DNA of 55,235 nt from an uncultured Saprospiraceae bacterium (lineage in GTDB: Bacteria; Bacteroidota; Bacteroidia; Chitinophagales; Saprospiraceae): NCBI GenBank assembly GCA_937923485.1, contig CALDUE010000036.1, positions 1-55,235 on the forward strand. Direction: 5' to 3'. The notes beneath the pieces were generated by a model. That model was not told the origin of the DNA, searched no databases, and saw only the letters and a list, made by a program, of their open reading frames with translations. The position numbers and the translations under genes are program-made. This document shows, piece after piece, positions 1,304 through 55,235 of the stretch (within the stretch, counting starts at the first letter, position 1; each line of letters begins with the position of its first letter).

Positions 1304-3394
1304 ATGTCAAAGCGCACCAACGATTTCATTCTCGATACTTGGACCCCTCATCAAGGGGATGGCATTCCGCAATACGATGCCGTTGATGGTTCGATCGTAG
1401 CAACCGCTGGTAATGAGGAGCTTGATTACGAGCGCATTTTAGCCTTTGGACGCGATGTGGGCGGTCAAGCTTTACGGAAGATGACAACACCTGCGCGGGG
1501 ACGCATGCTTAAAGCATTGGCGCTCTATCTCGAAGATCGCAAAGCGAAGTACTATGAGATTAGCTACCGTACGGGGGCAACGAAGGCTGACTCATGGATT
1601 GATATCGATGGCGGGTTGGGAACCCTGTTCGCCTACGCAAGCCTTCGCCGTCAATTTGCAGATCAACCCTTTCATGTAGAGGGAGACACTGTACGCCTTT
1701 CAAAACAAGGAAGCTTTTCCGGACACCATATTTTGGTTCCTAAGCATGGTGTTGCGGTACATATCAACGCCTTCAATTTTCCCATCTGGGGCATGCTCGA
1801 GAAGTTGAGCGCGACACTCATGGGTGGAATGCCAGCAATCATCAAGGCCAGTGAAATGACCAGTTTCGTTACCGAGGCAATGGTGCGCGACATCCACGCA
1901 TCGGGGATTTTGCCGAAAGGCGCATTGCAACTCGTGTCAGGTACTGGACGTGGAATACTCGACCACCTGATGCACCAAGATGTGGTCACGTTTACAGGCT
2001 CGGCGAGCACAGGAAGAAAGCTTCGTGCTCATCCACGAATTATTGAAGAAAGTATCCCCTTCAATATGGAGGCAGATTCTCTCAATGCAATTGTGTTGGG
2101 ACTAGATGCGGCGCCAGATACTCCTGAGTTCGCTCAATTCATCAAAGAAATTCGTCGAGAGGTTACCGCGAAGACCGGTCAAAAATGTACTGCGATCCGT
2201 CGGATCATGGTGCCAGAAGGTCTGGTTGAAGAGGTGCAAATTGCCTTAGGTCAAGCTTTCGCCAAAACAACCATCGGGGATCCAAGAGACAAGTCCGTAC
2301 GCATGGGCGCATTGGTCAATCGAGATCAACTCGGTAAGCTTGGAGAGTCTATAGAATCACTTCAAGGCGGCGCGGAGATTGTCATCGGTGGCCCAGATCG
2401 CCTAAACCTTGTTGGTGCAAACGCAGATGATGGTGCCTTCCATGCTCCAACAATTCTTCTCGATAAAAATCCAAGCAAAAACAAGACTACGCACGAAATC
2501 GAAGCCTTTGGTCCTGTCGCGACCATCATGCCATATACCGACCTAGGTGATGCGATCGAGCTAACTGCCAAAGGCAAAGGTTCACTGGTTACTACTATGG
2601 TAACCAACGATCCGAGTATCGCACGGGAGTTCACCTATGGGGCTGCGCCGTACAATGGCCGCATCCATATCCTCAACCGCGAAGCCAAAGAAAGCACAGG
2701 CCATGGTAGCCCAATGCCAGGCTTGAAGCACGGCGGACCGGGTCGTGCAGGTGGAGGCGAAGAACTCGGCGGAACGCGCTCCGTTGCACATTACATGAAC
2801 CGTTGTGCTGTCCAAGGGCACCCAACCATGGTCACTGCTCTAACACAACAGTATCAAGAAGGTGCCGCGCAATTCGAAGACCGGGTTCACCCATTTGCAA
2901 AGTACTGGGATGAACTAGTTGTTGGCGAAACCTACACGACAGCTAATCACACGGTAACGGTTGCTGACATTGTCAATTTTGCCAACGTAAGTGGGGATCA
3001 TTTCTACGCGCATGTTGACGAGACAAGTCTCGGAGATACCTTGTTTGAGGGCAGGGTAGCGCATGGATACTACTTGCTGAGTAAGGCTGCAGGCCTATTC
3101 GTACATGCGAAGAAAGGTCCAGTGCTACTCAACTATGGAATCGATACGTGTCGCTTTACCAAGCCTGTATATCCAGGTACGACAATAGGCGTCCGTCTCA
3201 CTGTTCTCGACAAGACATGGCAAGAGCTTCGCGAAGACGATGACATTGCAAAGGGAATCGTTCGTTGGCGAGTTGAGCTACGAGACGTAGAGCTCGAAGC
3301 CAAGGATCAAAGCCACCTACCAGAAGAAGAGCGAGAGTCAGAGATTATCGGCGTCGCTGTGATTTTGACGATGGTGCGTAGGTTAGAGGAGTAG
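1304..3394 (+). CDS. paaZ: bifunctional PaaZ: aldehyde dehydrogenase plus MaoC-type hydratase
   Basis: A 696-residue fusion. The N-terminal part (about 1-510) is an aldehyde dehydrogenase with catalytic Cys295 in 'GQKCTAIRR' and Glu256 in 'NMEADSLN'; these residue numbers match those known for E. coli PaaZ. The C-terminal part (about 535-690) is a MaoC hot-dog domain with the Asp565/His570 pair (DxxxxH). In phenylacetate degradation the enzyme hydrolyses oxepin-CoA and oxidises the resulting semialdehyde. The start is the ATG at 1304; a TTG nine bases upstream is in frame but adds nothing conserved. No other paa genes are in the window, so its pathway here is uncertain and other ring-cleavage or acyl-CoA substrates are possible. 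One copy of the dispersed motif lies at 2255. Confidence 0.9.
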   Translation: MSKRTNDFILDTWTPHQGDGIPQYDAVDGSIVATAGNEELDYERILAFGRDVGGQALRKMTTPARGRMLKALALYLEDRKAKYYEISYRTGATKADSWIDIDGGLGTLFAYASLRRQFADQPFHVEGDTVRLSKQGSFSGHHILVPKHGVAVHINAFNFPIWGMLEKLSATLMGGMPAIIKASEMTSFVTEAMVRDIHASGILPKGALQLVSGTGRGILDHLMHQDVVTFTGSASTGRKLRAHPRIIEESIPFNMEADSLNAIVLGLDAAPDTPEFAQFIKEIRREVTAKTGQKCTAIRRIMVPEGLVEEVQIALGQAFAKTTIGDPRDKSVRMGALVNRDQLGKLGESIESLQGGAEIVIGGPDRLNLVGANADDGAFHAPTILLDKNPSKNKTTHEIEAFGPVATIMPYTDLGDAIELTAKGKGSLVTTMVTNDPSIAREFTYGAAPYNGRIHILNREAKESTGHGSPMPGLKHGGPGRAGGGEELGGTRSVAHYMNRCAVQGHPTMVTALTQQYQEGAAQFEDRVHPFAKYWDELVVGETYTTANHTVTVADIVNFANVSGDHFYAHVDETSLGDTLFEGRVAHGYYLLSKAAGLFVHAKKGPVLLNYGIDTCRFTKPVYPGTTIGVRLTVLDKTWQELREDDDIAKGIVRWRVELRDVELEAKDQSHLPEEERESEIIGVAVILTMVRRLEE
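2255..2268 (-). repeat. dispersed motif, exact copy
   Basis: GTTTTGGCGAAAGC read on the minus strand, inside paaZ, where it encodes 'AFAKT'. Confidence 0.9.
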
Positions 3395-3400
3395 GTAATT

Positions 3401-3472
3401 CTAATTTCTTCGCGGGATGGTCAGCTCGCGGGCGGAGCCGCTTTTCGGCTGACCACCCCGCGAAGAAATTAG
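3401..3472. repeat. REP hairpin upstream of the RAYT gene
   Basis: Arms 3401-3425 and 3448-3472 pair over 25 bases with one mismatch. The loop holds GGCGGAGCCGC and a GGAG tetranucleotide followed by a CCG...CGG mini-hairpin. A second element with the same core lies just after the transposase gene. A GGAG or GTAG foot next to a small hairpin is the established hallmark of REP sequences handled by RAYT proteins. It may also stop transcription from paaZ. Confidence 0.75.
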
Positions 3473-4386: not shown

Positions 4387-5430
4387 CTATTCTAACTCCT
4401 CAATCCATTGCTTGATCAATGCCAGCCCCTCCTCATGTGCGATGCTCCTGCCAACCTCTGGCATACGGACGGCCGCATCGTTGCTTTTCATACGGTAATA
4501 AAGAATAGACTTTTCAGGTTTTCCCGGAAGGATGTCATAGGTACGTCCTCCAGACCCCTTACCCGCAGCAACAGGACTTTTAAGCACGCCCGTTTCTGGG
4601 CCAGTCGGGTATTTGTCGTGAAGAAACAAACCTGAAGTACTCGCTGGACCTTCATGGCGATGGCAATAGCCGCAGTTCGCATCCAGGTATGCGCGTGCGG
4701 CCACTTCAACAGTGACTCCTTCTGCTTTCCAATCCATGACGGGCCAAGTGCTATGATCGGCAGGAGACCCTGTTAGGACTCCAGTTTCTACCCAATTACC
4801 TACGTAATCAACCTTGCCACCGTGCAATTGGCGTGCAGCAGGACCAATAGGTTTGATCTTACCATTATAGCTGTGGCAACTCTTACACTGAAACTGATTA
4901 GGTGACTCGTAATGTACCTCGCGAATTTTACCTTTCACATCAGTCCACGTCACGTCTGTTTTGCCTCCGAGCGCTTTATACGCCGCATCGGTCTGCTCGT
5001 CATTCCACCAATATCCCCAAGCCTTCCAGCCTTTTGATGTGTTTTTAAGGATACGTGTTTCAATAAATCGGTTTTCTGAATCTGGATCACGCTCATCGGC
5101 TTTGTAATAAAAATGCTTGACGATAATAGCGCCCTGCGGTATGTCAAATACCTCGATGGGATCCCAGGCCATTTGTGTTCCTTCTGGCAAATAGATAAAC
5201 CTCGCTTTATGTGCATAATCGCTGAAAAGTGGCGTGTTAAGTTCGTAAGGCAACACATTTTCTGCGGGCACCATGTCAGTGAGATCTCCGATAAACAAAC
5301 CGTAGTCAGAGAGTAATTTCAATGGTTTTTCGGTGCTGCTTTCAACGAGCGGTCTATGGCTTACCAGTAGCCAGCTAAGGCAAGCGAATAGTCCGACAGA
5401 TATGTAGGTATTATAGCCCAAACGAATCAT
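4387..5430 (-). CDS. SO2930-family diheme c-type cytochrome
   Basis: A 347-residue exported protein with two haem c sites, 'CKSCH' (about 182-186) and 'CGYCH' (about 253-257). A likely Met ligand follows in 'AVRMPEVG'. The N-terminus has a single hydrophobic segment (about 10-24), which would anchor or export it to the periplasm. The sequence matches my memory of the diheme cytochrome family found next to parallel beta-helix proteins (TIGR03806 with TIGR03805). The upstream beta-helix gene overlaps it by 20 bases, so they form one operon. The start chosen is ATG 5430; an in-frame TTG at 5445 would add five residues. The substrate is unknown; electron transfer linked to the beta-helix partner is an inference from synteny. 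Confidence 0.8.
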   Translation of the reverse strand: MIRLGYNTYISVGLFACLSWLLVSHRPLVESSTEKPLKLLSDYGLFIGDLTDMVPAENVLPYELNTPLFSDYAHKARFIYLPEGTQMAWDPIEVFDIPQGAIIVKHFYYKADERDPDSENRFIETRILKNTSKGWKAWGYWWNDEQTDAAYKALGGKTDVTWTDVKGKIREVHYESPNQFQCKSCHSYNGKIKPIGPAARQLHGGKVDYVGNWVETGVLTGSPADHSTWPVMDWKAEGVTVEVAARAYLDANCGYCHRHEGPASTSGLFLHDKYPTGPETGVLKSPVAAGKGSGGRTYDILPGKPEKSILYYRMKSNDAAVRMPEVGRSIAHEEGLALIKQWIEELE

Positions 5431-6631
5431 ATATAGGGCTATCAAGGCCAGTATAGATAAAAGCTGGAGGATTGATTAGGATATCTTTGAACTTCCGCGC
5501 AGCATCAAGAACTGCAAAATCAGCTTGCTTACCCATTAGTAGAACAGCGTTCTTAGAAAAGTCGAGATCCTTGCCGGCTAATGTTTCTTCGGTGATGCCA
5601 TCGTAGATAATAGGCGGCACTTTACGACCAAACTTAAAGGCGAGCAACTTGCCAATCTTATTCTTAAAAGTTGGCCATTGATGCTTCCGCTCGATGTTAT
5701 TTCCATCGATAGTGATTTCATGAGGAATGGGCTCATACGCGTCATCCTGAATAGGCAATTCTGTGATGTAGTAACTCACAACAGCTATCGAAGTCGTCCT
5801 ATTCTCTACGATGGTGTTTCTATGAATTGCTACATCACTAGTTGCTAGCACCATAACGCCTGTACCAGGAGGAACTTGAGCAACTATATTGCCTTTAGGT
5901 GCGAAATTTTTTAGGTTATTAGATCTTACCTCGTTTCTGAAGACCTCTATATGGCCTCCTCTTTTCTTAATGAGTCCAGGCAAGTCAAAAACGAGGATTC
6001 CTCCAGTATTATTTTCGGCCAGATTGTCGTAGACCATTGCGTTTGTAGTATTCTCTATTTCAATGCCTGCCACATTTTCAATTGCTGTGCAATTACGCAC
6101 AATTACTTTGTTGCTTTGTCCTACATAAATACCTGCGTCGCTCGCACCTCTAGCCTTGCATCCATCGATAAGGACATTAGTGCACTGCACAGGATAAAGT
6201 CCATAAGAACCATTGGTTGATTTTGGCTTTCCAGTCCAGCTTGTCTCTAAATTCAAAAAATTAATCTGATCACACATTTGCGTTTTAATCGCATCACCCG
6301 CGGTATTCAAGATCGTGAAATCCTTCATTGTAAAGCGATTACAATTGCTCACTTTGAATCCTTCGGATCCTGCTTTCTGACCTTCGAATTGGAGGATGGT
6401 TTTATCCATTCCAGCTCCTGTAACTACGACGTCATCATAACCATCCACGAGTAGACTCTCCGTAAGTGTGTACGTCCCCTCAGGAAGGTGCAAGGTGTCT
6501 CCATCTTCCATCTCAAGTAAGGCGAGTTGCCAAGCTTGTTGGTGTTCGATTTGGGCTTTCGCCAAAACCGCCACTACGCACGATAGCAGTAAGGTGAACG
6601 CACATCTCAATATTGGAGAGGAGTTAATCAT
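5411..6631 (-). CDS. secreted parallel beta-helix repeat protein (SO2929/TIGR03805 type)
   Basis: A 406-residue protein with a signal peptide ending near 'VLAKAQ' at residue 27. The middle (about 50-300) is a right-handed beta-helix of the type seen in polysaccharide lyases and NosD/CASH domains: repeated 'VVVTGAGMDKTIL', 'NVLIDGCKARGASDAGIYVGQ' and 'IVRNCTAIENVAGIEIENT' rungs. It overlaps the downstream diheme cytochrome gene, the characteristic partner of this family. The signal peptide is partly encoded by a copy of the dispersed motif (6555-6569). Carbohydrate binding or cleavage is plausible from the fold, but no catalytic residues are assigned. Confidence 0.75.
   Translation of the reverse strand: MINSSPILRCAFTLLLSCVVAVLAKAQIEHQQAWQLALLEMEDGDTLHLPEGTYTLTESLLVDGYDDVVVTGAGMDKTILQFEGQKAGSEGFKVSNCNRFTMKDFTILNTAGDAIKTQMCDQINFLNLETSWTGKPKSTNGSYGLYPVQCTNVLIDGCKARGASDAGIYVGQSNKVIVRNCTAIENVAGIEIENTTNAMVYDNLAENNTGGILVFDLPGLIKKRGGHIEVFRNEVRSNNLKNFAPKGNIVAQVPPGTGVMVLATSDVAIHRNTIVENRTTSIAVVSYYITELPIQDDAYEPIPHEITIDGNNIERKHQWPTFKNKIGKLLAFKFGRKVPPIIYDGITEETLAGKDLDFSKNAVLLMGKQADFAVLDAARKFKDILINPPAFIYTGLDSPIYDSFGL
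6555..6569 (-). repeat. dispersed motif, exact copy in a signal peptide
   Basis: GGTTTTGGCGAAAGC in the sense of the beta-helix gene; it encodes 'VLAKA' at the end of the signal peptide. Confidence 0.9.
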
Positions 6632-7171: not shown

Positions 7172-9058
7172 ATGCGAATTTCTACATTCTACTCCATCCT
7201 TATCCTTCTTATCACAGGTTTTGGCGAAAGCCCCGTGCTTGCGCATGCAGCCTCGTCCTTTTCACGGAACTCTTTCTTTGCAACTGAACTCGACTGTAAT
7301 CATCCAGATGCCACAGCCTCACATGAACAGACCGTATCAGAAAGCAAGCTAGAGGCAGTCACCGTCTATCGGCGAGGAGCACTCATCAAGCGTACTGGCG
7401 AAGTAACGCTCACAGAAGGAGAGAACATTCTCTCCATCGTTGGACTCGAAATTGGGATAGCCCCATCCACTATTCAAATCGCTATTGCGGATGATGCCAG
7501 TGTTTTTTCAATCGCCTATTCAACAGATCCAAATCGAAAAGTCATAGAGCCTGATAGCCTCGTGGATCTCAGAAAACTTCGTCAAGAAATAGAACTTGAA
7601 AAAAGAATGCTCGGAGCGGATATCGAAGCACTCCATGAAGAACTTGCAATACTCAATGCCAATAAAAATTTCTCAAGAAGAACGAGTGAGCCCGAGGAAA
7701 TACAGCGTGGTGCAAAGCTCATAAGTGAAAGCGTTCGTGCAACCAAGCATGCGTTGGTCAAACTAAGTTTTGAATTTGAGGAACTAGATAAAAAGGCCAC
7801 TCAAGTCGACAATAGGATTGCGACAGTTCGACCAACTGTTCCACAAAATATCGGCAAAATTTATGTAACCAGCATTGCGAATCGCCCCGGCACCTATACG
7901 TATGAACTTAGCTACCTCGTTCAAGATGCTGGCTGGACGCCCGACTATGATCTCTTCTCTAAAACTGTCGAAAATCAGTTTGCAGAGCTTGTCCTTGTCG
8001 GTAATATCTACCAACGCACTGGTATAGATTGGAAAGATGTCGAGCTCTCACTGAGTACAGGAAACCCACAACAACGCAAGATGGCGCCGAGTTTGAGACG
8101 ACTCTATCTAGGAGAGAACAATGCTTACAATCAGCTAGGGGCAAATGGAATGATGCTCACTGCTGAACAAGTGAAGCTTCTTGGTGCCAATTCCATTAAT
8201 GCCATAGCGAGTCTATCAGCTGGGGCCAGTGCCGAAGATTTTGGGGAGGCGATCAGTATGAGAGGAGGTAGGAGTAACGCAACGCAGTACATTATCGACG
8301 GCATGCGGGTCACGGGCACGCTCGTTGTCGAGTCTGACATTAACGACGATTTTTTCAACCAAAATCCATTGGGTAGTCCAGATAGTTATCTCGGGACATC
8401 CACTGAACCTGTTCCACAAATCTCCTTCGCCAGCGAAAAGAGTATGCTCACTTCTCGCACCTACACCGTTGATTATCCAGTTAGTCTTGCTGCCAACGGC
8501 ACTTCAAGCGCAGTACGATTGACCTCGCATATACTCCCTTTAGACCTTCGTTATCGATCAGTCCCGAAGATTGATCCAACCGTTTATCTCGAAGGCATCG
8601 TTACAGGTTGGGACACTTTGCGACTCTCAGATGGTAGAATGCGTCTTCACCTCGATGGCCGATACTTAGGCACAACGGTGCTAATCGCCAACCAGCCATC
8701 TGATACGTTGCTTTTGCCGCTCGGGGCAGACAAACGCATCATCATCGAACGCGAAAGTGCCAAGCAACTCGTCGAGCGTAAGCCTGTACGTGGCAGAAAA
8801 AACTATGACCTAGGCTACATCATCAAAGTCCGAAATACCCGGCAAGAGGCTATCAAATTAGTGATCGAAGACCAGATGCCTTTAAGCAAGAAACAAGAAA
8901 CCGAGGTCGAATTGATTTCTGCTGGGCTTTCGCCAAAACACGATACCCAGACTGGAATTTTCACCTGGGACTTAAGCCTCGCAGCAGCGAGCGCTGAAGA
9001 AATTGAAGTAGCCTATAAAGTGACAGCAGGAAAGTTTGTGAAGGTGAATTTTGAATGA
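7172..9058 (+). CDS. DUF4140/DUF4139 MuiA-like protein with a TonB-plug-like insert
   Basis: A 628-residue exported protein. After the signal peptide an N-terminal DUF4140 segment ('ESKLEAVTVYRRGALIKRTG', about 50-150) is followed by a coiled coil (about 125-215) and the DUF4139 beta-rich domain to the C-terminus. Such proteins are called mucoidy-inhibitor-like; biochemical function is unknown. Unusually, residues about 327-383 read like a TonB receptor plug ('AISMRGGRSNATQYIIDGMRV'), an insert absent from the tandem paralog downstream. Copies of the dispersed motif lie in the signal peptide (7217) and near the end (8926). The gap to the paralog is about 115 bases. Confidence 0.75.
   Translation: MRISTFYSILILLITGFGESPVLAHAASSFSRNSFFATELDCNHPDATASHEQTVSESKLEAVTVYRRGALIKRTGEVTLTEGENILSIVGLEIGIAPSTIQIAIADDASVFSIAYSTDPNRKVIEPDSLVDLRKLRQEIELEKRMLGADIEALHEELAILNANKNFSRRTSEPEEIQRGAKLISESVRATKHALVKLSFEFEELDKKATQVDNRIATVRPTVPQNIGKIYVTSIANRPGTYTYELSYLVQDAGWTPDYDLFSKTVENQFAELVLVGNIYQRTGIDWKDVELSLSTGNPQQRKMAPSLRRLYLGENNAYNQLGANGMMLTAEQVKLLGANSINAIASLSAGASAEDFGEAISMRGGRSNATQYIIDGMRVTGTLVVESDINDDFFNQNPLGSPDSYLGTSTEPVPQISFASEKSMLTSRTYTVDYPVSLAANGTSSAVRLTSHILPLDLRYRSVPKIDPTVYLEGIVTGWDTLRLSDGRMRLHLDGRYLGTTVLIANQPSDTLLLPLGADKRIIIERESAKQLVERKPVRGRKNYDLGYIIKVRNTRQEAIKLVIEDQMPLSKKQETEVELISAGLSPKHDTQTGIFTWDLSLAAASAEEIEVAYKVTAGKFVKVNFE
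7217..7231 (+). repeat. dispersed motif, exact copy in a signal peptide
   Basis: GGTTTTGGCGAAAGC in sense of the first DUF4139 gene, read as 'GFGES' within the signal peptide. Confidence 0.9.
8926..8939 (-). repeat. dispersed motif, exact copy
   Basis: Exact copy antisense to the first DUF4139 gene, read as 'LSPKH'. Confidence 0.9.
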
Positions 9059-9172: not shown

Positions 9173-10828
9173 ATGCAAAGCACTTTTCTTCGACTTTCTG
9201 TACTTACCGTCTTCGTTTTCCTTGTTGGACTAACCCCTGTTTTGGCGCAAGCTGATAGGGACTCGCAGAGCGCGAACTCTGTCCCCTCCAAACTTGAAAA
9301 AGTTACTATCTATCAGCAAGGGGCACTGCTCACAAGGACCGGATCGCTTACCTTAAAAGCAGGCGAGCAAGAAATTATTCTTGAAGGTCTAGAACGTAAT
9401 ATCAATCCAGGAAGCATCCAGCTTGCCATAGATCGAAGTGTAGGAATCTTTGCCGTGGAGTACACCAGAGTAAATCCAAAAGCCGGTTCAGAACCTGATA
9501 GCCTCATTAAACTTAGAGAGGAATTGAAAGGGCTCCGAAAGGTGCTTGCCGTAAATGCCATTCAGCAAAAAGGATACGATGAAGAAATCGAAATTCTCAA
9601 AGCAAATCGCCTGATAGCACAGAGTGAAACATCCGGTTACTCTGCTGCGAGCATTCGCGAAGCGACCCAGTTGCACAACGAACTCGCCACGGCGGCAAGA
9701 GTTGCTCGTCTTGACTTGGTAGAGAAAGCTACCGAAATCAACAAGGATATACTCGTGCTCGAACAACGCATTAATGCAATTCGACCGAACCAAAACGGCG
9801 CAGTTGGAAAAATCGTCGCAAAAGTCATTGCTGAGCGTGGCGGCGCATTCAATTTTGAGCTGAGCTACATTACTAATGCGGCCAGCTGGAATCCAAACTA
9901 TGACCTTTATGTCCAGACGGAAGGAACTTCAAAGTCGCAATTGGTTTTAGCAGCTGACATCCGTCAGAATACAGGCATTGATTGGGAAAATGTAGCGCTC
10001 ACATTGAGCAACACTAATATTAATTCAAGGCTGACGCCACCAACGCTCTCACCGATTTTTTTAGGTGGTAATGCTGAATACGACCTCAAAAGCCAAGTAG
10101 CTGGCACTGTGCAAAAACGAAAGCAAACAGCCGAAGAAGAAGTCGTCTATGCGCCGCTGCAAAACGCGAGCGCAGATGTCGCTTACGCAGCTACCTATGC
10201 CACGCAAAGCAACTCTGCAGCGGCACGCCTTTACGAAATAGATCGACCTTTTAGCCTTGTCGCTAACGGAAAGTCTTCATCCGTAAAATTGACCTCGAAC
10301 GAACTCCCAATCGACCTACGTTACCGTATCGTACCAAAGCGTGAACAGCAAGCTTACCTCGAAGCGGTAATTACCGGCTGGGATACGCTCAACTTACTCG
10401 CTGCACAAACGCGCACCCACCTTGATGGTCGCTATCTCGGTAAGACCTATTTAAACACACAGCAGAATAGTGATACGCTTACTGTTGGATTGGGACCAGA
10501 TAAGCGTCTCGTCGTAAAACGTACAGGTAGGGGGCAGGGTAGTGATACCAAGTTTATCCGCGGGAAAAAAGAGTACAACCTTGGTTACCAAATTACATTA
10601 CGCAATACGCGAAATGTCGCGATTGATGTCCTCGTCGAAGATCAAATTCCAGTCAGTCAGAAAGACGAGCTTACTGTTGAATTAAAGAATGCTACTGGCA
10701 AACCTGACTTAGATGAATTTACAGGAAAGCTCACTTGGAAGCTTTCGCTAAAACCTGCCAAGGAAGAAAAACTAATTGTCAATTATCAAATCGTTGCGCC
10801 TAAGAATACTCCCATTCGATTTGAATAA
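9173..10828 (+). CDS. DUF4140/DUF4139 MuiA-like protein, paralog without plug insert
   Basis: A 551-residue protein with a signal peptide ending near 'VLAQA', then the same domain order as the upstream gene: 'SKLEKVTIYQQGALLTRTG', coiled coil, and DUF4139 ('GRYLGKTYLNTQQNSDTL' and 'YNLGYQITLRNTRNVAIDV'). It clearly arose by tandem duplication. The plug-like segment is replaced by a short low-complexity stretch ('QKRKQTAEEEVVYAPLQNA'). The ATG at 9173 is chosen because it begins the signal peptide; the in-frame GTG at 9092 would add 27 residues that do not look like part of a signal sequence. The stop is only 23 bases from the end of a convergent gene. Confidence 0.75.
   Translation: MQSTFLRLSVLTVFVFLVGLTPVLAQADRDSQSANSVPSKLEKVTIYQQGALLTRTGSLTLKAGEQEIILEGLERNINPGSIQLAIDRSVGIFAVEYTRVNPKAGSEPDSLIKLREELKGLRKVLAVNAIQQKGYDEEIEILKANRLIAQSETSGYSAASIREATQLHNELATAARVARLDLVEKATEINKDILVLEQRINAIRPNQNGAVGKIVAKVIAERGGAFNFELSYITNAASWNPNYDLYVQTEGTSKSQLVLAADIRQNTGIDWENVALTLSNTNINSRLTPPTLSPIFLGGNAEYDLKSQVAGTVQKRKQTAEEEVVYAPLQNASADVAYAATYATQSNSAAARLYEIDRPFSLVANGKSSSVKLTSNELPIDLRYRIVPKREQQAYLEAVITGWDTLNLLAAQTRTHLDGRYLGKTYLNTQQNSDTLTVGLGPDKRLVVKRTGRGQGSDTKFIRGKKEYNLGYQITLRNTRNVAIDVLVEDQIPVSQKDELTVELKNATGKPDLDEFTGKLTWKLSLKPAKEEKLIVNYQIVAPKNTPIRFE
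9239..9252 (+). repeat. dispersed motif variant with GCAA loop
   Basis: GTTTTGGCGCAAGC encodes 'VLAQA' in the second DUF4139 signal peptide. One base differs, in the loop. Chance is possible because VLAQA is common in signal peptides. Confidence 0.5.
10741..10755 (-). repeat. dispersed motif variant, A flank
   Basis: GGTTTTAGCGAAAGC on the minus strand, near the end of the second DUF4139 gene ('LSLKP'). Confidence 0.8.
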
Positions 10829-14063: not shown

Positions 14064-17000
14064 TTACTCCATTCGGATGTATCGTCCACCACTACTCGCA
14101 TTGCCCATTCCAAACGGAGTAGCCTGCCCATCGACTTGCGTCTTTGAATCATTTACGCGCTTGTAGGTGCCTTTAGCTTCGGTTTTGGCGAAAGCAAGAA
14201 GTTTACCTCTGTTTTGACCAACTACATTTAGAAGCTGCCCGTCAGCGGTCAATACCTTCACCATTCCTGTCCCATCTCCTATGATGTTTAGGCCTGTTTG
14301 AATGTTGGGCAAGGCTAGCCAAGAGCCATTTTTGTCTTTTGACAAAACAAGCCCATGAAGTGCATCCATCTGGCCTGAACGCACTTCTATTCCGTAATCA
14401 TTACCCGTAAGTAAAAGTTCAGGAGTTCCATCATTATTAATATCCTCAGCACTCATTCCATAGATAGGTGCGAGTTGAGCTTCTCGTGGAAGTTCTTGTA
14501 GCGTGAAGCTTCCATCTTCCTCATGTTCGAGGTAAATACTTGCTAAATAATTTACTTCAACTGTAAGGCTATCATTTCCACCTAGTGCAATTATTATTTC
14601 ATCCGCTTTGGCCTCAGCGAAATCTTTATGAAACGGATATACATCTTTAATTTTGATTACCTGCATCTGATTTTCTTGACGCTGAAAGAGCGTGTAGAGT
14701 TGGGCCTCACCATTCTCGTCATCGAATCGAGTTGCGGGTATAGCATCGAGCGTACCGTTGTTGTCAAAGTCCCCCGCATAGATGCGTGCAAAATCTCGTC
14801 CGTCACGGTGGTAGATGTTGTTTCGCCCTAGATTTCCTGCAACAATATCGAGATCACCATCATTGTCTCCATCAAAGAAAAGTAGGCTATTCCAACAGCC
14901 GGTTTTGCCTTTCAGCGCATCTATTTCGCTTTCGCTAAAACCAGCCTTTCCAGACTCAAAATGACGGATTTTCCCCCAATCTTCAGTAATAAATAAATCC
15001 TGCCAACCATCTTGATCAATATCGATCACAACGGCATCGGTTACCATTCCGAGCGAACTGAGCTGCCATTCTTGTTTAAATGAAAAATTACCGCCATCAT
15101 TTAGAAGAATAACACTTTTTGCGGGTCTTGGAAATTGACCAGCTACCGTTCTTGCTCCAACAAACAAGTCTAGGTCTCCATCTCTATCAAAATCTCCAGC
15201 ACGAACGCAACTTGATGATTCAGTGAATGCTGGAATTGCTTCCTTATCGCGACTTAATTTGCCATTTACATTTCTATAAAAGACATCTTGGTATCCTTCA
15301 TGGCCTGGGCGTAATTCTACGCTACCATGCGCGATGTAGAGGTCTTCGTCACCATCTCCATCTGCATCAAAAAATAAGGCGCTGGTTGTCTCACCTAAAG
15401 TATCTATTGGGATGAAAGAATCGTCTAACGCAAAGGTTCCATCTTGATTTTGTAGCCAAAGCAAATCCGTTGCATCGAGCGGTCCTCCAATGAGCAAGTC
15501 GTCAAGTCCGTCGCTATTTGCATCGCCTACACAAAGTACAGGACCAAATTGCGAAAGTTGTCTTGGAAGCAAGCGCTGAATATCAAAATCAACGAAGAGT
15601 GTTTCCTCAAATTGAAAATCAATACCTTTTTGAGCCGCAACTTCCCTTAGGTATGGTTTGATGTTGACTGTTTTGGCGGAAGCTGGAACTTTCCCTTCCT
15701 TTTGATCGAAAGTGATGCGCTGATCAGTTCTCACATTACGCCTATAAGACACTTTACCGTCTGGCCATCTTACGCTAACATCAGCAGTCGAAAAGGTGTC
15801 AAGTCCAAAGTTGAGGATTTTTGATACGGTGGAGAGGTATCCTCTGTATGGACTTTGGTATCTTCTCAAGGATCTGTCACCAATCGTAATCGTTACTTCA
15901 GCACCAAATGCGGACTTGTTAGCAGTATTGCCATTTAGAACAACTTGTAAGTAGTGCTTATCGATCTGGCTTGCGGTGCGTGTATCGTTGCGATAAAGCA
16001 AGATCGAGTCGTTGATGCAATTGACTACATAATCGAGGTCTCCATCATTGTCTAAATCGACAGTAGCAGCGCCGCTAGAGAAACTTGGACGTTTGAGTCC
16101 CCATTTTTCAGTTGAATTTTCAAATTGTGGGACCAAGTTCCCATCATTTTCGTAACCATAATTACTGATGAGGACGGAAGGGATTTTCTCCATTAATAAG
16201 GCTGGAGACGAGTACGAGCTCAAACTCGAGGAGTAGTCCATAAAATCGAGATCTGTAATGTCTCGCGGGAATCCGTTTGTAATCAAGAGGTCCAGGTCGC
16301 TATCCAAGTCTACATCGGTGGAAAGGACACTCCAACTCCAGTCGGTAGCTGATATTCCACTGAAGAATCCGATTTCGCTAAAAATTGGCAAGCTATCCTG
16401 AGTACTTAGTTTTCCTCGATTTAGCTGTAGCACATTGCGCATGTACTGAGGTTGATACTTAAACCGACGATTATTACGCTCGTTGTTGAAATTGGCTGAG
16501 GCGACCATCGTCTTTCTTCGAAAGTTGCTCCCTGGAAGCATATCAAGGGTAAGAATGTCGCTCCTTGTGTCTCCATTTATATCGGCCACATCGACACCCA
16601 TCGCAGAATAGCTCGTGTGTTTCGTGAGTTGGTCCGCTTCGTCTTTAAAGGTCCCGTTTTGCTGGTTGATCCAAGCTAAATCATTGCTTAAGTAGTCGTT
16701 GGCAATATAAATATCAGGCCATCCATCTTCATTTAGATCGCAGACAGCGACGCCGAGTCCGTAGCCATCTTTTAGTATACCCGCTTCTTTGGTGACCTCA
16801 GTAAAAACAGGATGTCCGACCTTCCCGATCCCCTCATTTCGGTAGAGTTTGTCATTTCTTACACTCGTCCCATCGGTGACTTTAGGTCTGTACAAGTTGG
16901 GCACTCTTTTATCGTCCATGTGATTTACTAGCACATAGCAATCTAGATCGCCATCTAGGTCATAGTCGAGGAAAACAGCATTCGTGGAGTGAGTCGAATC

Positions 17001-28588: not shown

Positions 28589-28713
28589 GAAAGGAGTTCG
28601 GACCACAAGTTTACAAACGATTACGCGGAGTTTTTTGGTGCCCTCCACATCAGTGCTTACTCGAACTAGCTAAAAGGCCACAGGTGTTTGTCGTTGAGCT
28701 TGCAAGAAGGGAG
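28589..28713. other. intergenic spacer before the 74-bp repeats
   Basis: Non-coding stretch between the start of the T9SS cargo gene and the tandem repeats. It should hold the cargo gene's promoter on the minus strand, but I see no good TAnnTTTG box. Confidence 0.3.
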
Positions 28714-46364: not shown

Positions 46365-47942
46365 TTGACTTCTACTTCTTCTTCATCATTAGCTACTACT
46401 TCAGCTGTTCGCACGCGAACCAAAGCACTATTGGACGCACTCACCGAAGGCTTGCATGAGCGAGATACTGCGGTAGCCATGGCACTGCTCACTGCATTAG
46501 CAGGAGAAAGTATCTTTCTACTTGGCCCTCCAGGTGTAGGTAAATCTTTGATCGCTCGGCGACTCAAACATGCCTTCTCAGACGGCACAAGCTTCGAATA
46601 CCTGATGTCGAAGTTCTCTACGCCAGATGAAATCTTTGGACCTGTTTCCATCCGAAAGCTAAAAGACGAGGATAAGTACGAACGACTTACCGCCAAATAT
46701 CTCCCAGGAGCCAACGTCGTATTCCTCGACGAAATTTGGAAAGCGGGCCCAGCGATTCAAAATGCACTGCTTACCATTCTGAATGAGAGAATATATCGCA
46801 ACGGCGAACAAGAAATCGAAGTTAAAGTCCGCGCAATTATCTCGGCCAGTAACGAGCTGCCAGCGCCAGGCTCAAGTTTAGACCCGTTGTGGGATCGCTT
46901 TTTGGTACGGCTCGAAATAGGAAACGTGCGCAAATTCGATTCCTTTGTCAAGCTTATCACGGATACGAACAATGTCTACGACGTCAATATTCCAACAGGG
47001 GTCGCCTTGTCACAACAAGAGCTTGAGGCATACTCCACAGAGATTGATAAGGTCGAACTTTCTCCTGAGGCGCTGAACACGATCCAAGTGCTCAAGTCGC
47101 GCATCGACGCCTACAACGCAGAACGACCTGATCCTTCCGATCACATTCGCGTCTACGATCGCCGATGGAAGAAGGCTGTGCGACTGCTGCGCACAAGTGC
47201 TTACCTCAACGGAAGGTCTGCCGTAGATCTCATGGATTGTTTCCTGCTTGAATATTGTCTGTGGGGAAAGCCTGATCAACGAGATCACATCAAAGAGATG
47301 TTGGCAGAAACAATCCGTCAGCATGGCTATGCAGTCGCGGTCAATTTACCGATGCTACGCAAAGAGCTAGACAGTTTTGAAGCAGATGTTGATGCAGAGA
47401 TTCGTGTACGACATATCGTGGCCGAGGATCAGCTCCAACCCGTACAGGATGAGTACTACGAGATCCTCAAGGAAGACTCTCAATTTGAAGGTGTGCTCAT
47501 TAGTGTCAAGCAGTTTGACGGACTTACGGCTGACGAGCTAAGCGTGACCAATCTGTTTGATGCGAATAAAAGCCTCGTCAATAGATTGAAGGTGCGTAAG
47601 AGTGATCGTCCCAACATGATCACTGTCGAATACAATGCACGCGAGTATACCTACCGGCTCCGCACGCGTCAAATCGAGCGCACGGAGATCATTCCAAAAA
47701 CACCTCATGCCTTGGTGGTTCAGCATTGGGAAGAAAGATTCCGTGAGCTAAACGCCTACATTGCTGAGCAGGCCTCTCGCCTAAAAGCCGATGCTCCAGA
47801 AGCGCTAAACGGCTTACGCCAAAACCTCTTCGTGGAGGCTAGATTCGCGGAGCTAGCTGAAGCTAATCAACGTCAAACTGCCGAGGCCGTAGATGCCTTG
47901 AAGTTGCGCTTGGATAAGCTGCGGTATAGCTACAACCCATAG
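46365..47942 (+). CDS. ravA: RavA-like MoxR-family AAA+ ATPase
   Basis: A 525-residue MoxR ATPase. Walker A 'GPPGVGKS' (about residues 54-61), Walker B 'VVFLDEIWKAGPAIQNALL', sensor 'IISASNELPAPGSSLDPLWD' and an arginine-finger region match RavA closely. The C-terminal part (about 330-525) corresponds to the RavA triple-helical/LARA region. RavA normally works with the VWA protein ViaA, which is not next to it here. Start is TTG 46365, the only in-frame start before the conserved core. The aminotransferase gene begins three bases after its stop, so both are likely one operon. A GTAA-loop variant of the dispersed motif lies at 47812. Confidence 0.8.
   Translation: MTSTSSSSLATTSAVRTRTKALLDALTEGLHERDTAVAMALLTALAGESIFLLGPPGVGKSLIARRLKHAFSDGTSFEYLMSKFSTPDEIFGPVSIRKLKDEDKYERLTAKYLPGANVVFLDEIWKAGPAIQNALLTILNERIYRNGEQEIEVKVRAIISASNELPAPGSSLDPLWDRFLVRLEIGNVRKFDSFVKLITDTNNVYDVNIPTGVALSQQELEAYSTEIDKVELSPEALNTIQVLKSRIDAYNAERPDPSDHIRVYDRRWKKAVRLLRTSAYLNGRSAVDLMDCFLLEYCLWGKPDQRDHIKEMLAETIRQHGYAVAVNLPMLRKELDSFEADVDAEIRVRHIVAEDQLQPVQDEYYEILKEDSQFEGVLISVKQFDGLTADELSVTNLFDANKSLVNRLKVRKSDRPNMITVEYNAREYTYRLRTRQIERTEIIPKTPHALVVQHWEERFRELNAYIAEQASRLKADAPEALNGLRQNLFVEARFAELAEANQRQTAEAVDALKLRLDKLRYSYNP
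47812..47826 (-). repeat. dispersed motif variant with GTAA loop
   Basis: GGTTTTGGCGTAAGC antisense to ravA, read as 'LRQNL'. Confidence 0.8.
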
Positions 47943-47945: not shown

Positions 47946-49241
47946 ATGTCCTCCTCCCTTTCAAATCGCGGTGCCGCCCTCATCGGCAAGCCCCTTCGTG
48001 CTGACTTTGACAAGTTTGCACTTGCCGAAGAGAATCCCTACGATGCAGTTAATAATCCTGAGGGGGCTATTTCCCTTTGCATCGCCGAAAACGTATTGTC
48101 TTGGCCAGAGATGCGCGCCAAATTGCAAGAGATCGCCCAGCGACCGATACCGCAATGGGTCTCAAAATACACTTCGATTCTTGGTGCTCCACCGTTTCGT
48201 GAAGCGCTGGCGCGTTTTGCCGAAAGGCACCTTAGCACCATTGGGGGCAGATCGGCTCAAACGTTTAGCGAAGACCATTTTGCTGTCTCAAGTGGTGCCA
48301 CGGGTATCGTCGAACTGACTGCCCTATTGCTCTGCGATGATGGAGATGTGGCAGCCTTTCCCGCTCCCTGCTATCCGGTCTACACACAGGATGTCGGTAA
48401 CAAGGCCAAGGTGGGGAGATTCGATATTTTACCGGCGGCAGCTTGGAGAAATACACCCGGCCAACACCCACTTTCCGTGCTGGATTTAGATCGCTCGCTT
48501 GCCGAGATTGAGGCACAAGGCAATCAATTGAAGTTGCTTGTACTTACACAGCCCGATAATCCGACGGGAGTGATTTACAGTCAGCAGCAACTGGAGCAAA
48601 TCACAGATTGGTGCATTGCACACAAGGTGCACCTCTGCGTCAATGAGTTATATGCACTTTCGCAGATTGATTACACCGATGCTAGTTTGGCGAACGACTA
48701 TGGCTCCCAGCCTGTCCAGTATTACTCTTTTCTAAATGAGGTAGAACGTCGCCAGAGTCCGTTTCTTCATTGGTGGTATTCCTTTTCGAAAGACTTCGGC
48801 ATATCAGGACTACGCACAGGAGTGATGTATAGCCGCAACGATGATTTTCTGGAGGCTTTGGGCAACTATGGTGCTCCATCTTTGGTGAGCAACCATACCC
48901 AGTGGTTATTGAGTGAAATGCTTAGTGATGAGGATTGGGTTACAGCTTTCGCCAAAACCAATCAGCAGCGTCTCACAAGAAGTTATGCAGAGGTCATCAA
49001 AACGCTAAGAAAGAAGAACATTCAGTACTTCCCGGCTAGAGGGTCGCTTTTTGTGTGGGCGAAGTTGAACGACACGCAGGCCACCTCCGATATTGAATAC
49101 TGGAGCAAGCTCTTTGACGATCAACAGCTTTTGCTAACTGCACCAGGAGGTTTTGGCCACACTGAAAACGGTTGGCTAAGAATCGTGTATTCCTGTGTTG
49201 ATGCAACAGTTTTGGATGTCGCCCTAGATAGACTTAGCTAA
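47946..49241 (+). CDS. PLP-dependent class I/II aminotransferase (ACC-synthase-like)
   Basis: A 431-residue fold-type I PLP enzyme. Motifs: 'SSGATGIVELTALLLCDDGD' (cofactor phosphate loop), 'LTQPDNPTG', the Schiff-base Lys in 'YSFSKDFGISGLRTG', and the carboxylate-binding Arg in 'GWLRIVYSC'. The wording of these motifs is closer to ACC-synthase-like enzymes than to aspartate aminotransferase. True ACC synthase activity is unlikely to be inferred from this alone; a transaminase or lyase on an unknown amino acid is equally possible. It follows ravA by three bases. Two dispersed-motif copies lie inside it (48214, 48945). Confidence 0.8.
   Translation: MSSSLSNRGAALIGKPLRADFDKFALAEENPYDAVNNPEGAISLCIAENVLSWPEMRAKLQEIAQRPIPQWVSKYTSILGAPPFREALARFAERHLSTIGGRSAQTFSEDHFAVSSGATGIVELTALLLCDDGDVAAFPAPCYPVYTQDVGNKAKVGRFDILPAAAWRNTPGQHPLSVLDLDRSLAEIEAQGNQLKLLVLTQPDNPTGVIYSQQQLEQITDWCIAHKVHLCVNELYALSQIDYTDASLANDYGSQPVQYYSFLNEVERRQSPFLHWWYSFSKDFGISGLRTGVMYSRNDDFLEALGNYGAPSLVSNHTQWLLSEMLSDEDWVTAFAKTNQQRLTRSYAEVIKTLRKKNIQYFPARGSLFVWAKLNDTQATSDIEYWSKLFDDQQLLLTAPGGFGHTENGWLRIVYSCVDATVLDVALDRLS
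48214..48227 (+). repeat. dispersed motif, swapped-stem variant
   Basis: GTTTTGCCGAAAGG in sense of the aminotransferase gene, read as 'RFAER'. Confidence 0.85.
48945..48959 (-). repeat. dispersed motif, exact copy
   Basis: Exact copy antisense to the aminotransferase gene, read as 'AFAKT'. Confidence 0.9.
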
Positions 49242-50450: not shown

Positions 50451-51563
50451 CTACCAGTTCGCTTTTCCGCTTGAAGGAAAAAGTGCCGCAAGAGAAAAGC
50501 GGACATAATAGATGCATACGCCTACATCAAGTACAGGCAAATAGGCGATCAGGTCGCTTTCACCGAGGCTCTTTGCGATTTGGCTCATCCGCCACCAGAC
50601 TAATGCAAGTCGTACACTATATATAAGGAGTGCGAATTGCCAAGCCCCAAACAGCATAAGAACAAGTACACCAACGAAGTGAGCAACATGTGAAGCTGCT
50701 AGCATGCCGAGCCACAGCTGATCACTCTTTTTATATGCTGTACTCACAGAGAGGTGACGCGTCTTTTGTTTGAAGTAGCCACTCCATGTTGTGTGTGGCT
50801 CGGAGTATACCCATGCATCGGCATCCACACAGATGCCCGTATTGGTAGCTGTTGCGCCTTGGTTGACAAGTAGGTCGTCATCTCCACCTGCAAGATGTGC
50901 ATGGGAAGAGAAACCTTCGACACGGTTATAGAGCGCTCTGCTATAAAGCATGTTGCGACCTACTCCCATGTAGGGGTTTCCAGATGCGGCTGCGCTCAAA
51001 TACTGGCCTGCGGTATACAAGGCCTCGAATCGAATCCACTTATTAAGCCATCCAGCTCGCTTTTGGTAAGGACCGTAGCCCAAGACTAGCTCGGTTTTGT
51101 CGTCTGCGGCGCTGAGCATTCGGGCAGCCCAGTTGCTAGAAGCTGGTTTGCAATCTGCATCGGTTGCAAGAATCCAAGTGGATGTACTCTTGGCGATGGC
51201 CTCGCTGAGGGCGGCCTTTTTACCAGGACTGGTTTTGGCGAAAGCAGACACCACGCGTAACTTCGAATACTTCTCCTCAAATTGTGCGAGCACCTGTCCA
51301 GTAGCATCGGTACTGTCATCGTTCACTACGACCACTGCTAGGCTAGGAAGGTCTTGATCTAGGATCGCTGGTAGAAACCGCTTCAAGTTTTCAGCCTCAT
51401 TGCGAGCAGCAAGTAGAATGTCCACGCTTTCGATAGGATTGGTCTCAGCAGACTTCTTACCAAAATGCTTGACCAACCGCGCGGCAGGCACGACATAAAA
51501 CCAGGCGTTTATAAAGCTGGCAAGCGTAGCGAGAAGAAGAATAGTCAAGACCACAGTCTGCAA
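50451..51563 (-). CDS. membrane glycosyltransferase family 2
   Basis: A 370-residue enzyme: N-terminal membrane helix (about 4-24), GT-A fold catalytic domain (about 45-250) with 'DILLAARNEAENL', 'VVVNDDSTDATGQ', the DxD-like 'ATDADCKP', 'GGDDDLLVNQGA' and 'QKTRHLSVS', then two or three C-terminal membrane helices. The plan resembles processive or chain-transferring GT2 enzymes of the cell envelope. Acceptor and sugar are unknown. Start is TTG 51563; no in-frame ATG lies before the helix. One motif copy encodes 'AFAKT' (51231). Divergent from dtd. Confidence 0.82.
   Translation of the reverse strand: MQTVVLTILLLATLASFINAWFYVVPAARLVKHFGKKSAETNPIESVDILLAARNEAENLKRFLPAILDQDLPSLAVVVVNDDSTDATGQVLAQFEEKYSKLRVVSAFAKTSPGKKAALSEAIAKSTSTWILATDADCKPASSNWAARMLSAADDKTELVLGYGPYQKRAGWLNKWIRFEALYTAGQYLSAAASGNPYMGVGRNMLYSRALYNRVEGFSSHAHLAGGDDDLLVNQGATATNTGICVDADAWVYSEPHTTWSGYFKQKTRHLSVSTAYKKSDQLWLGMLAASHVAHFVGVLVLMLFGAWQFALLIYSVRLALVWWRMSQIAKSLGESDLIAYLPVLDVGVCIYYVRFSLAALFPSSGKANW
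51231..51245 (+). repeat. dispersed motif, exact copy
   Basis: Exact copy antisense to the glycosyltransferase gene, read as 'AFAKT'. Confidence 0.9.
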
Positions 51564-53381: not shown

Positions 53382-53560
53382 AGGTTCGCTGTTTGAATTT
53401 TGCAGAAGAAAGAGTTACTCCTCCGCTTAGTAAAAGTAGTCGTTTATCCCTTAAGGTTAGATCATCAAAAGGTTAATATCACTGGATAGATCGTCAGAAA
53501 GTGGTAGTACCGTATGCTTTATAGTCCAGTCACGGCTATCCGACGAATAGCAGATTGAGC

Positions 53561-55235
53561 TTATGGTCTGTCCGCGGACTGTAGTTCTATGAGGCGAGCA
53601 TAGGTTCCTCCTTTTTCCAATAGGGTAGCGTGATCACCGCGCTCAATGACTTTTCCGCGTTCCATCACAAGTATCTCATCCGCTTGCTGAATGGTGGCCA
53701 TGCGGTGTGCAATCACCAAGCTGGTGCGACCTTCCATGAGGCGGAAGAGTGCACTTTGGACGAGTTGCTCGCTTTCGGCGTCTAAGGCGCTAGTCGCCTC
53801 GTCGAGAATCATGATCGGGCGATTCTGGAGGATAGCTCGAGCAAGGGTAATACGTTGGCGTTGTCCACCACTGAGACGGTCCCCACGATCACCAATAATG
53901 GTATCGTAGCCTTGCGGTTGTTCTTTGATAAAATCGTGCGCATTGGCTTTTCGAGAGGCTGCCTCGATTTCTGCATCCGTCGCATGTTCTGCCCCAAAGA
54001 CGATGTTCGCCCGAATCGTATCATGGAACAGAACCACATCTTGACTTACAATACCGATAAGGTTGCGCAAATCTTTGAGCTTCAATTTTCTTATGTCGGT
54101 GCCGTCGAGAGAAATCGTTCCACTGTCTATGTCATAAAACCTTGGGATGAGGTCTGCCAGCGTACTCTTACCTGCTCCACTAGCTCCGACGAGTGCTACA
54201 ACTCTACCTGCTGGAAGGGTAAGTGAAACACCATCGAGCGCTGGCATATCGGCGTTTTCATATTTAAAACTCACTTGCTCGAAGCGCAATTCTTCTTTGA
54301 GCTCGGCTACCGATTGCATACCTGATCCTTCGGCAATTGAGTTGGGCGAGTTCATAACTTCTTGGATACGATCCATGGCCGCTCGCCCACGTTGGAGTGA
54401 GTAGAAGGCATTGGAGAATTGCTTACTGGGCTGGATGGTCGAGAAAAACGCATAGATGAAGGCCAAGAACACAGCCACATCAATAGCACCTGCTTGGATC
54501 TGTTGGAATCCGAAGTAGATGAGTACCGTCACGACTCCGATTCCCAAGAACTCACTTAGCGGCCCTGATAGGTCTCGACGTCTCAAGAGTTTGACAAGTG
54601 TATCGCGATAATTTCTGTTGCTTTCGCCAAAACGGTCGGCCACATAGCCTTCTGCCCCAAATGCTTTGACCACGCGCAGTCCACCGATGGCCTCATCAAT
54701 TTGACTGGTCATGTCGCCGAGTGCTCCTTGTACTTCACCCGATTGCTTGCGTAGGCGACGACTGATGCCACCGATGAGAAAGCCGGTGATCCCTAATAGA
54801 AGGATGGTGAACAAAGTCAGCTTAGGGCTAATGAACAGCATCACGATGAGCGCACCAATAATGAGCAGTGGATTCTGAATCAATGCTTGTATAGAGTTCA
54901 GAACGGAATTTTCGAACTCCTGCACATCTCCGGTGAATCGAGAAATCAGATCTCCACGTTTGGTAGCGGAGAAGTAGCCGATGGGCAATTGGACGACGTG
55001 TTTGAACAGGTCTTGGCGCATGTCTCGCACCACATTGGAGCGCAACGGTGCCATGGTTGCTACGGATAGGTACCTGAAGAAGTTCTTGCCGAAAAAGACG
55101 AAGAGGATACCGAGGCACATGTAGATGAGGGCTTGGTTATAGCCTTCGGTACGTATGATCTCGCTGAGCCAAAAGTTGAAATTCCCAGTAATGCCTTCCA
55201 CGCTCCAAGACCATGCGGGGGCTTCGGTGGTTAGC
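53561..55235 (-). CDS. MsbA-like ABC exporter, 3' part
   Basis: The frame is open to the window end, so the true start is beyond 55235; a GTG at 55201 is only an internal candidate. Membrane domain of the exporter fold (about the first 300 visible residues, 'LFKHVVQLPIGYFSATKRGD', 'VVKAFGAEGYVADRFGESNR') is followed by the nucleotide-binding domain: Walker A 'GASGAGKST', 'LSGGQRQRITLARA' signature, Walker B 'PIMILDEATSALD' and switch His in 'LVIAHRMATI'. The best match in wording is MsbA, the lipid A flippase, but multidrug exporters look similar. One motif copy lies at 54620 ('RFGES'). Confidence 0.85.
   Translation of the reverse strand, partial: LTTEAPAWSWSVEGITGNFNFWLSEIIRTEGYNQALIYMCLGILFVFFGKNFFRYLSVATMAPLRSNVVRDMRQDLFKHVVQLPIGYFSATKRGDLISRFTGDVQEFENSVLNSIQALIQNPLLIIGALIVMLFISPKLTLFTILLLGITGFLIGGISRRLRKQSGEVQGALGDMTSQIDEAIGGLRVVKAFGAEGYVADRFGESNRNYRDTLVKLLRRRDLSGPLSEFLGIGVVTVLIYFGFQQIQAGAIDVAVFLAFIYAFFSTIQPSKQFSNAFYSLQRGRAAMDRIQEVMNSPNSIAEGSGMQSVAELKEELRFEQVSFKYENADMPALDGVSLTLPAGRVVALVGASGAGKSTLADLIPRFYDIDSGTISLDGTDIRKLKLKDLRNLIGIVSQDVVLFHDTIRANIVFGAEHATDAEIEAASRKANAHDFIKEQPQGYDTIIGDRGDRLSGGQRQRITLARAILQNRPIMILDEATSALDAESEQLVQSALFRLMEGRTSLVIAHRMATIQQADEILVMERGKVIERGDHATLLEKGGTYARLIELQSADRP
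54620..54633 (-). repeat. dispersed motif, exact copy
   Basis: Exact copy in sense of the ABC exporter gene, read as 'RFGES'. Confidence 0.9.

Follow-up and report, generated by a model that had tools for sequence, protein, structure and literature searches.

A dispersed, hairpin-defined DNA motif with genus-specific tags in Saprospiraceae, a candidate label of own DNA

The dispersed intragenic chromosomal signals known to us, namely DNA uptake sequences (DUS), uptake signal sequences (USS), Chi and the FtsK-orienting polar sequences (KOPS), are linear words. DUS and USS are recognized by a minor pilin of the type IV pilus machinery. Known Chi sites are short linear words without a hairpin and are usually co-oriented with replication. 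KOPS are replication-polar, matS is confined to the terminus region and HIP1 is a perfect palindrome; we know of no stem covariation in any of these three. Repeats composed of a tag plus a hairpin are bound as single-stranded DNA by RAYT, the transposases associated with repetitive extragenic palindromes (REP). Among Bacteroidota, Riemerella columbina prefers its own DNA; no signal has been established, and the k-mers of up to 10 bases reported for it were just A/T-rich words of unproven function (PMC7965970). Here, we analyzed a 55,235-nucleotide stretch (the window) from an uncultured Saprospiraceae bacterium (assembly GCA_937923485.1, contig CALDUE010000036.1, positions 1 to 55,235), in which a sequence-only reading had noted a 14-base word, GTTTTGGCGAAAGC, scattered through the genes. 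The word belongs to a dispersed and conserved hairpin motif, spaced strand by strand and carrying genus-specific tags. We refer to its copies as marks.

The window is part of contig C36 of a genome (G000) of 3.31 Mb in 216 contigs, which is 85% complete. Thirteen exact copies of GTTTTGGCGAAAGC were found in the window, and 27 copies when up to two mismatches were allowed, compared to 0.65 (SD 0.83) expected from 100 dinucleotide shuffles. The hairpin definition given below yielded 28 sites, 15 on the minus and 13 on the plus strand, with a mean of 0.017 and a maximum of 1 in 60 order-1 Markov simulations. Relative to the mismatch set, the hairpin set gains the sites at 4518, 21573 and 29184 and loses those at 34093 and 35876. 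The reported 13 exact copies and about 28 copies with variants were thus recovered. Genome-wide, GTTTTGGCGAAAGC occurs 508 times (253 and 255 by strand), far above the reversed-word control, which was absent from both strands. With up to two mismatches the counts were 752 and 750 (control 32 and 37), and the hairpin pattern GTTTTNNCGNAAG gave 760 and 754 (control 11 and 12; 1,514 versus 23 in total). In the whole genome of a sister species from the same genus (G001), this pattern was counted 819 and 837 times (control 16 and 14). Genome-wide strand sums pool contigs of unknown orientation, so that 253:255 says nothing on polarity; strand balance was checked stretch by stretch, and both strands carry marks within single stretches. 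No single mobile or protein family accounts for the copies, and neither outcome named in the first reading as refuting was seen. The dispersed word is therefore confirmed as real, and the interpretation first given to it is partly supported.

Variation among the copies is not random. In a 417-kb sample of G000 (the window and 19 further stretches), 55 of 60 one-mismatch copies deviate at one of two positions, and two words alone, GTTTTGCCGAAAGG and GTTTTGACGAAAGT, make up 36 of the 68 two-mismatch copies. The motif reads GTTTT-N-X-C-GNAA-G-X', where X and X' are Watson-Crick partners: a T-tract and one base are followed by a mini-hairpin that is closed by C-G and has a GNAA loop. In the 417-kb sample, positions 7 and 14 of GTTTTNXCGNAAGX' were G-C in 142 sites, C-G in 37, A-T in 20, T-A in 2 and G-T in 1, with no other combination, and the inner stem pair was nearly always C-G. 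In an enlarged G000 sample of 686 kb, the outer pair was Watson-Crick in 326 of 329 sites (exceptions C-T, G-A and G-T). The same held for 188 of 194 sites in G001, the remaining six all being G-T, and for 207 of 241 sites with the tag TTT in a genome from another genus of the family (G027). The second loop position is free in G000, with A favored. At the third, 326 of 335 sites have A, eight have C and one has G, and in G001 a G occurred in 1 of 193; RNA GNRA loops tolerate G at this position. A third stem pair was seen above the marginal expectation in G027 (90 versus 52.6 of 198) and in G038 (20 versus 9.5 of 34), with a smaller excess in G000 (93 versus 69.2 of 232) and G001 (69 versus 50.6 of 183). 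A still longer stem was rejected: among column pairs reaching 40 bases to either side of 205 G000 sites, only pair 6-13 was strong (z 13), and the next best (z 3.6) lay at the noise level for so many pairs. The variants thus preserve a stem of 2-3 bp and the GNAA loop, and the 14-mer, which had been taken for a linear word, is merely the most frequent form of a structural motif.

GCGAAAGC, at the core of the most frequent copy, is known as a DNA mini-hairpin of unusual stability. DNA mini-hairpins with GNA or GNNA loops and two or more G-C pairs have been described as very heat-stable and resistant to nucleases (PMC4686876), and d(cGNNAg) is named as a mini-hairpin in the title of a reference. 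As pairing within one strand is absent from the duplex, selection would most simply act on the single-stranded form of the DNA. Reading of the marks in single strands is well supported, and we regard it as very probable.

Position relative to genes was analyzed with mechanically called open reading frames (ORFs), which cover 91% of the sampled DNA in G000, 91% in G001 and 85% in G027. All 28 window sites lie inside ORFs of at least 120 amino acids. In the 417-kb sample 185 of 208 sites lie within called ORFs, 82 in sense and 103 in antisense orientation, with 23 outside. The claim that all copies are in coding sequence is hence true for the window and not for the genome. G001 showed 72 sense and 66 antisense sites, with 35 outside ORFs, and the GTTTT-type sites of G027 were 8 sense, 6 antisense and 3 outside. 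All six codon phases are used in the G000 sample, as had been stated for the window, albeit unequally (sense 40/33/9, antisense 50/18/35). Because sense and antisense copies are balanced, selection acts on DNA and not on protein, in agreement with the sequence-only reading.

The arrangement along the strands was examined in 686 kb of G000, 429 kb of G001 (2.5 kb masked) and 210 kb of G027. In this genus each strand bears about one mark in 4 kb, and mark numbers in 5-kb intervals are under-dispersed (variance/mean of 0.68 in G000, 0.73 in G001 and 0.83 in G027). Strand labels were shuffled 2000 times with positions fixed. Same-strand pairs at 300-3000 bp numbered 122 of 316 in G000 (shuffle mean 158; 0 of 2000 shuffles as low; z -4.1), 52 of 159 in G001 (79.3; 0 of 2000; z -4.4) and 208 of 461 in G027 (230; 25 of 2000; z -2.2). 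Beyond 4 kb the numbers of same-strand pairs were normal, and opposite-strand pairs at 300-3000 bp showed no depletion compared to uniform placement. Same-strand sites avoid each other below 3 kb and opposite-strand sites do not; thus, each strand is populated independently of the other. The coefficient of variation of same-strand spacing was 0.75, 0.69 and 0.85 (G000, G001, G027), with simulated values of 0.94, 0.90 and 0.97. Among neighbors more than 400 bp apart, strand alternation was seen in 91 of 137 (G000), 75 of 109 (G001) and merely 64 of 123 cases (G027). At 0-300 bp, 20 of 67 G000 pairs were same-strand, and neighbors no more than 150 bp from each other tend to be oppositely oriented (17 of 22 in G000, 11 of 15 in G001, 19 of 27 in G027). 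Such inverted close pairs were considered as terminators; most sites are not so paired, so that termination cannot account for the set. The GC skew, weak in G000 and G001 and clear in G027, revealed no leading-strand bias (99:103, 71:78 and 105:93, respectively) and did not correlate with mark strand over 20, 19 and 10 stretches. This agrees with the initial argument against a replication-polar signal.

Conservation was assessed in 26 blocks (84 kb, 77.9% identity, none omitted) aligned between G000 and G001. Of 40 G000 sites, 31 are marks in G001 as well, 26 of them identical, at a flank identity of 77%. As a control, words with these letters in shuffled order retained all ten fixed positions in 20 of 222 cases. 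One alignment has a gap at the mark and the other 39 have none there, on which grounds a mobile origin and spread by transposition were rejected. Among the nine lost sites, three are one base away from a mark, with a G-T pair left in two of them, and a further one carries a mark of opposite orientation. Five orthologous sites had changed and were still marks, with every change outside the stem pair. Marks change by base substitution and are retained far above the control. One case was seen at 14182-14195, where the sister species (L132) has a mark at the same place in the opposite orientation; the two orientations are linked via the near-palindrome GCTTTCGCGAAAGC.

Next to the tag GTTTT, other tags precede the same hairpin. 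An unbiased scan of G027 found it after CTTTT, TTTTT, ATTTT and others; in 200 kb, the tag TTT gave 232 sites, of which 198 were paired, and the tag AAA merely 12, of which 2 were paired. Whole-genome counts of TTTNNCGNAAG were 1,878 and 1,953 in G027 (control 120 and 147), 1,042 and 1,106 in G038 (233 and 249) and 561 and 515 in G029 (104 and 111); over 119 genomes, several weaker excesses were found and the majority lay near the control. Before TTT, the predominant base is T (itself preceded by G) in genus g1, T or A in G027, T in G029, and A in G038 and in locus L010 of a metagenome-assembled genome, from few sites in G038 (34), L010 (9) and G029 (16). A tag-by-core scan of 12 samples had TTT/CGnAAG as its top row in G000, G001, G027, G038, G029 and L010 and as its fourth in G066 (7 paired, 3 not); no clear signal was obtained in G063 (9 paired, 9 not), G061 (4, 1), G036 (6, 5), G013 (2, 5) and G007 (0, 2). 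Among 398 family genomes drawn, dense GTTTT marks occur in g1 only, and numbers are intermediate in some g29, g38 and g66 genomes and in four of the five g27 species. Some other genera of the family have the hairpin with other tags (TTTT, ATTT), and most genera are without it. Tags thus differ between genera, like dialects. No other dense carrier was found among 395 genomes of the phylum, in which excesses outside the family reached at most about 2-fold over control, for example in G473 (384 versus 183) and G811 (579 versus 295), as counts irrespective of pairing. Of the long loci among the SecA and small loci scanned, L010 alone showed a clear excess, with 9 paired sites in 16 kb. In IMG/VR, the scan gave at least 120 stretches; each of the 80 stretches listed held one copy, and no dense viral carrier was seen among them.

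Among competence genes, named initially as something to look for, ComEC was detected in all 26 Saprospiraceae genomes tested, with or without marks. The PilC/GspF pilus platform (PF00482) was not found in 25 of the 26, including all dense carriers, in a search that left pilins, DprA and other competence genes aside and in which G000 and G001 were represented by genomes 85% complete. The one genome with a PilC/GspF-type protein is G063 (L250, L251).

Based on these observations, we propose that the marks are labels of self-DNA, DUS-like in their working but read on single-stranded DNA, a proposal that we regard as evenly poised. In natural transformation, DNA that enters through ComEC at the inner membrane would turn single-stranded, and the entering strand could then fold the mini-hairpin. 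A putative protein at or behind the channel may recognize the T-tract together with the hairpin, and recognition would favor transport, protection or recombination of the marked strand. A strand of a few kb would need one mark; extra marks on the same strand would bring no gain and marks on the other strand would be neutral. Biased recombination may build and maintain the marks, as has been proposed for DUS and USS. The label may act in a ComEC-based, pilus-free uptake or in the recombination step behind it. Uptake as the process is a weaker step in this argument than the reading in single strands.

Several points weigh against this proposal. On the side of the hairpin, a standard DNA folding model gave weak energies, none clearly better than shuffles, favored another fold for the commonest variant and did not reproduce the reported mini-hairpin stability. 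About one tenth of the marks hold one G-C and one A-T pair, and the mini-hairpins reported (PMC4686876) have two or more G-C pairs. The covariation is visible between sites, with no compensatory double change observed at one orthologous site. As to location, 35 of 173 sites in G001 lie outside called ORFs, above the 9% of DNA found there, and 23 of 208 in G000. The same-strand repulsion is weak in G027, and G296, one of the five g27 species, has no GTTTT-type excess (17 versus 19). ComEC is also present in mark-free genomes and hence not discriminating, no reader protein was found, with a Y1/RAYT candidate unsupported, and no uptake experiment on a carrier is known to us. Finally, same-strand spacing would equally be given by a Chi-like signal.

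Such a recombination signal is the main rival, although we consider it unlikely. Upon resection of a broken end, the exposed strand would fold into the hairpin, whose resistance would halt the nuclease and let RecA loading begin. Each end would be served by single-stranded marks of one orientation, fitting the even same-strand spacing just as well; the density per strand would also suit such a signal, as would the nuclease resistance described for GNA/GNNA mini-hairpins (PMC4686876). The leading-strand excess is absent, however, the tag drifts between genera, and known Chi sequences are short linear words. Moreover, the distribution within one family is very uneven, with dense marks in g1 and g27 and near-control numbers in most genera, and end-resection enzymes are expected nearly everywhere, so that this patchiness counts against the Chi-like signal.

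A conventional DUS, i.e. a pilin-bound linear word in double-stranded DNA, is improbable. The resemblance to DUS put forward initially stands for density, strand balance, intragenic location, conservation and dialects. It does not stand for the linear word, as the stem covaries and the outer pair is free and still Watson-Crick in nearly all sites, nor for the pilus platform, which was not found in 25 of 26 genomes. The strand-wise spacing is also unlike the expectation for a double-stranded uptake word: uptake by Haemophilus influenzae was independent of motif orientation (PMC1939737).

REP-type elements handled by RAYT proteins are less probable still. Their build is similar, with a GT(A/G)G head and a palindrome foldable in single strands, and REPs are mostly extragenic (PMC2817692); the marks, in contrast, are intragenic in 185 of 208 cases and change by substitution in alignments ungapped at the site. 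RAYT-like proteins exist in the genus, scoring 54-64 bits with the NCBIfam model REP_Tyr_transpos, below its 80-bit cut-off. They are encoded at L174:3243-3920 (-), L180:4334-5053 (+), L173:462-1136 (+) and L178:1831-2529 (+), those of L174 and L180 being 79% identical. In the 200 bp beside five Y1 genes no mark was present (one side of L184 offered merely 104 bases); one mark lies inside the L178 gene itself. Y1_Tnp matches do not track the mark, with none in G029 and some in G007 and G003, using a Pfam model that scores RAYT-like proteins weakly and may miss some. A Y1/RAYT protein as the reader of the mark is thus unsupported, since the flanking palindromes differ and no mark is adjacent. 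By eye, other palindromes flank the L173, L174, L178 and L180 genes (in L174/L180, TCCTGCGGATT...AATCC.CAGGA), and these genes with their own palindromes look like REP-RAYT pairs in Bacteroidota.

Priming or replication-restart sites on a single-stranded template are similarly improbable. They would require a hairpin in single-stranded DNA, which is also a feature of phage G4-type origins. The two strands, however, are equally marked even in G027 with its clear GC skew (105:93), and the distribution is patchy. An RNA hairpin in transcripts, in which C-GNAA-G would make a standard GNRA tetraloop, is mostly refuted and the least probable: antisense copies are about as frequent as sense copies in G000 and G001, and this balance makes it unlikely that the marks arise mainly from a signal in transcripts, as do the near absence of GNGA loops and the few G-T pairs.

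The individual window marks are as follows; unless stated, each was found both by the word search (up to two mismatches) and by the hairpin definition. The exact word GTTTTGGCGAAAGC lies on the plus strand at 7218..7231, 14182..14195 (the site inverted in the sister species, also supported by the alignment), 23620..23633, 29269..29282 and 51232..51245. On the minus strand it lies at 2255..2268, 6555..6568, 8926..8939, 24628..24641, 28533..28546, 38822..38835 (in a MutY-like gene with HhH-GPD and NUDIX_4 domains), 48945..48958 and 54620..54633. GTTTTAGCGAAAGC occurs on the minus strand at 10741..10754, 14928..14941 (aligned; the sister species has G-T in place of G-C) and 17022..17035, and GTTTTAGCGGAAGC on the minus strand at 39673..39686. 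Loop variants are GTTTTGGCGCAAGC (GCAA loop, 9239..9252, plus), GTTTTGGCGGAAGC (GGAA loop, 15670..15683, plus) and GTTTTGGCGTAAGC (GTAA loop, 35818..35831 and 47812..47825, both minus). A C-G stem pair is present in GTTTTGCCGAAAGG, on the plus strand at 33278..33291, 39633..39646, 39788..39801 and 48214..48227. Three sites were found by the hairpin definition alone: GTTTTCCCGGAAGG (C-G stem pair, 4518..4531, plus), GTTTTCCCGAAAGG (C-G stem pair, 29184..29197, plus) and GTTTTGACGGAAGT (A-T stem pair, 21573..21586, minus). The gene content of the window includes a CHU_C type IX secretion signal, SusC/RagA and GldE. Together with the closest SecA relatives detected, which are 66-69% identical and chiefly carry the names Saprospiraceae or Lewinella, it assigns the genome to Saprospiraceae, Bacteroidota. 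Two further repeats were observed. The 7-mer GACGTGG stands in tandem in about 19 copies at 36486-36623, between two ORFs, and about two copies of a 74-base unit lie at 28714-28871, directly upstream of the minus-strand gene 26873-28648 (CHU_C secretion domain).

Taken together, the marks look like a genome-wide, hairpin-defined label of own DNA, of a kind not described before. GTTTTGGCGAAAGC, its complement and its 13-mers had no match in the literature searched, with subscription papers outside its scope, and no such signal was described in the titles and abstract openings surveyed, which are part of the matching literature. Tentatively, thousands of mini-hairpins may form a structural code that a protein reads in single strands, distinguishing own from foreign DNA in a pilus-free transformation, with the tags as dialects. 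If this is true, Bacteroidota would have self-recognition without a type IV pilus, and there would be a handle on the own-DNA preference in at least one Bacteroidota species. A signal that is defined by single-strand secondary structure and mostly intragenic is blurred by k-mer counts alone; covariation inside dispersed words is a general test that can be applied to any genome.

Compared to known systems, the marks share with KOPS, matS and HIP1 that short words are dispersed on the chromosome. With the mini-hairpins d(GCGAAAGC) and d(cGNNAg) they share the C-GNNA-G turn; these are known from chemistry and aptamer papers and were not found as a genome-wide signal in the part of the literature surveyed. 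Chi sites are likewise oriented, one-strand signals every few kb. REPs also combine a 5' tag with a hairpin foldable in single-stranded DNA, but they are longer, mostly extragenic and mobile, whereas the marks have 14 bases, are mostly intragenic and change by substitution, and the RAYT-like genes of the genus adjoin palindromes unlike the mark. Like the DUS of Neisseriaceae and the USS of Pasteurellaceae, the marks occur in hundreds to thousands of copies on both strands, are often genic and conserved, and come in dialects. In contrast to both, they are hairpins with free but paired stem bases and show strand-specific repulsion, their dense carriers are without a detected PF00482 platform, and their role in uptake is a proposed one. 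Since membership in DUS/USS fails on the linear word and on the pilus platform, we describe the marks as DUS-like and not as DUS.

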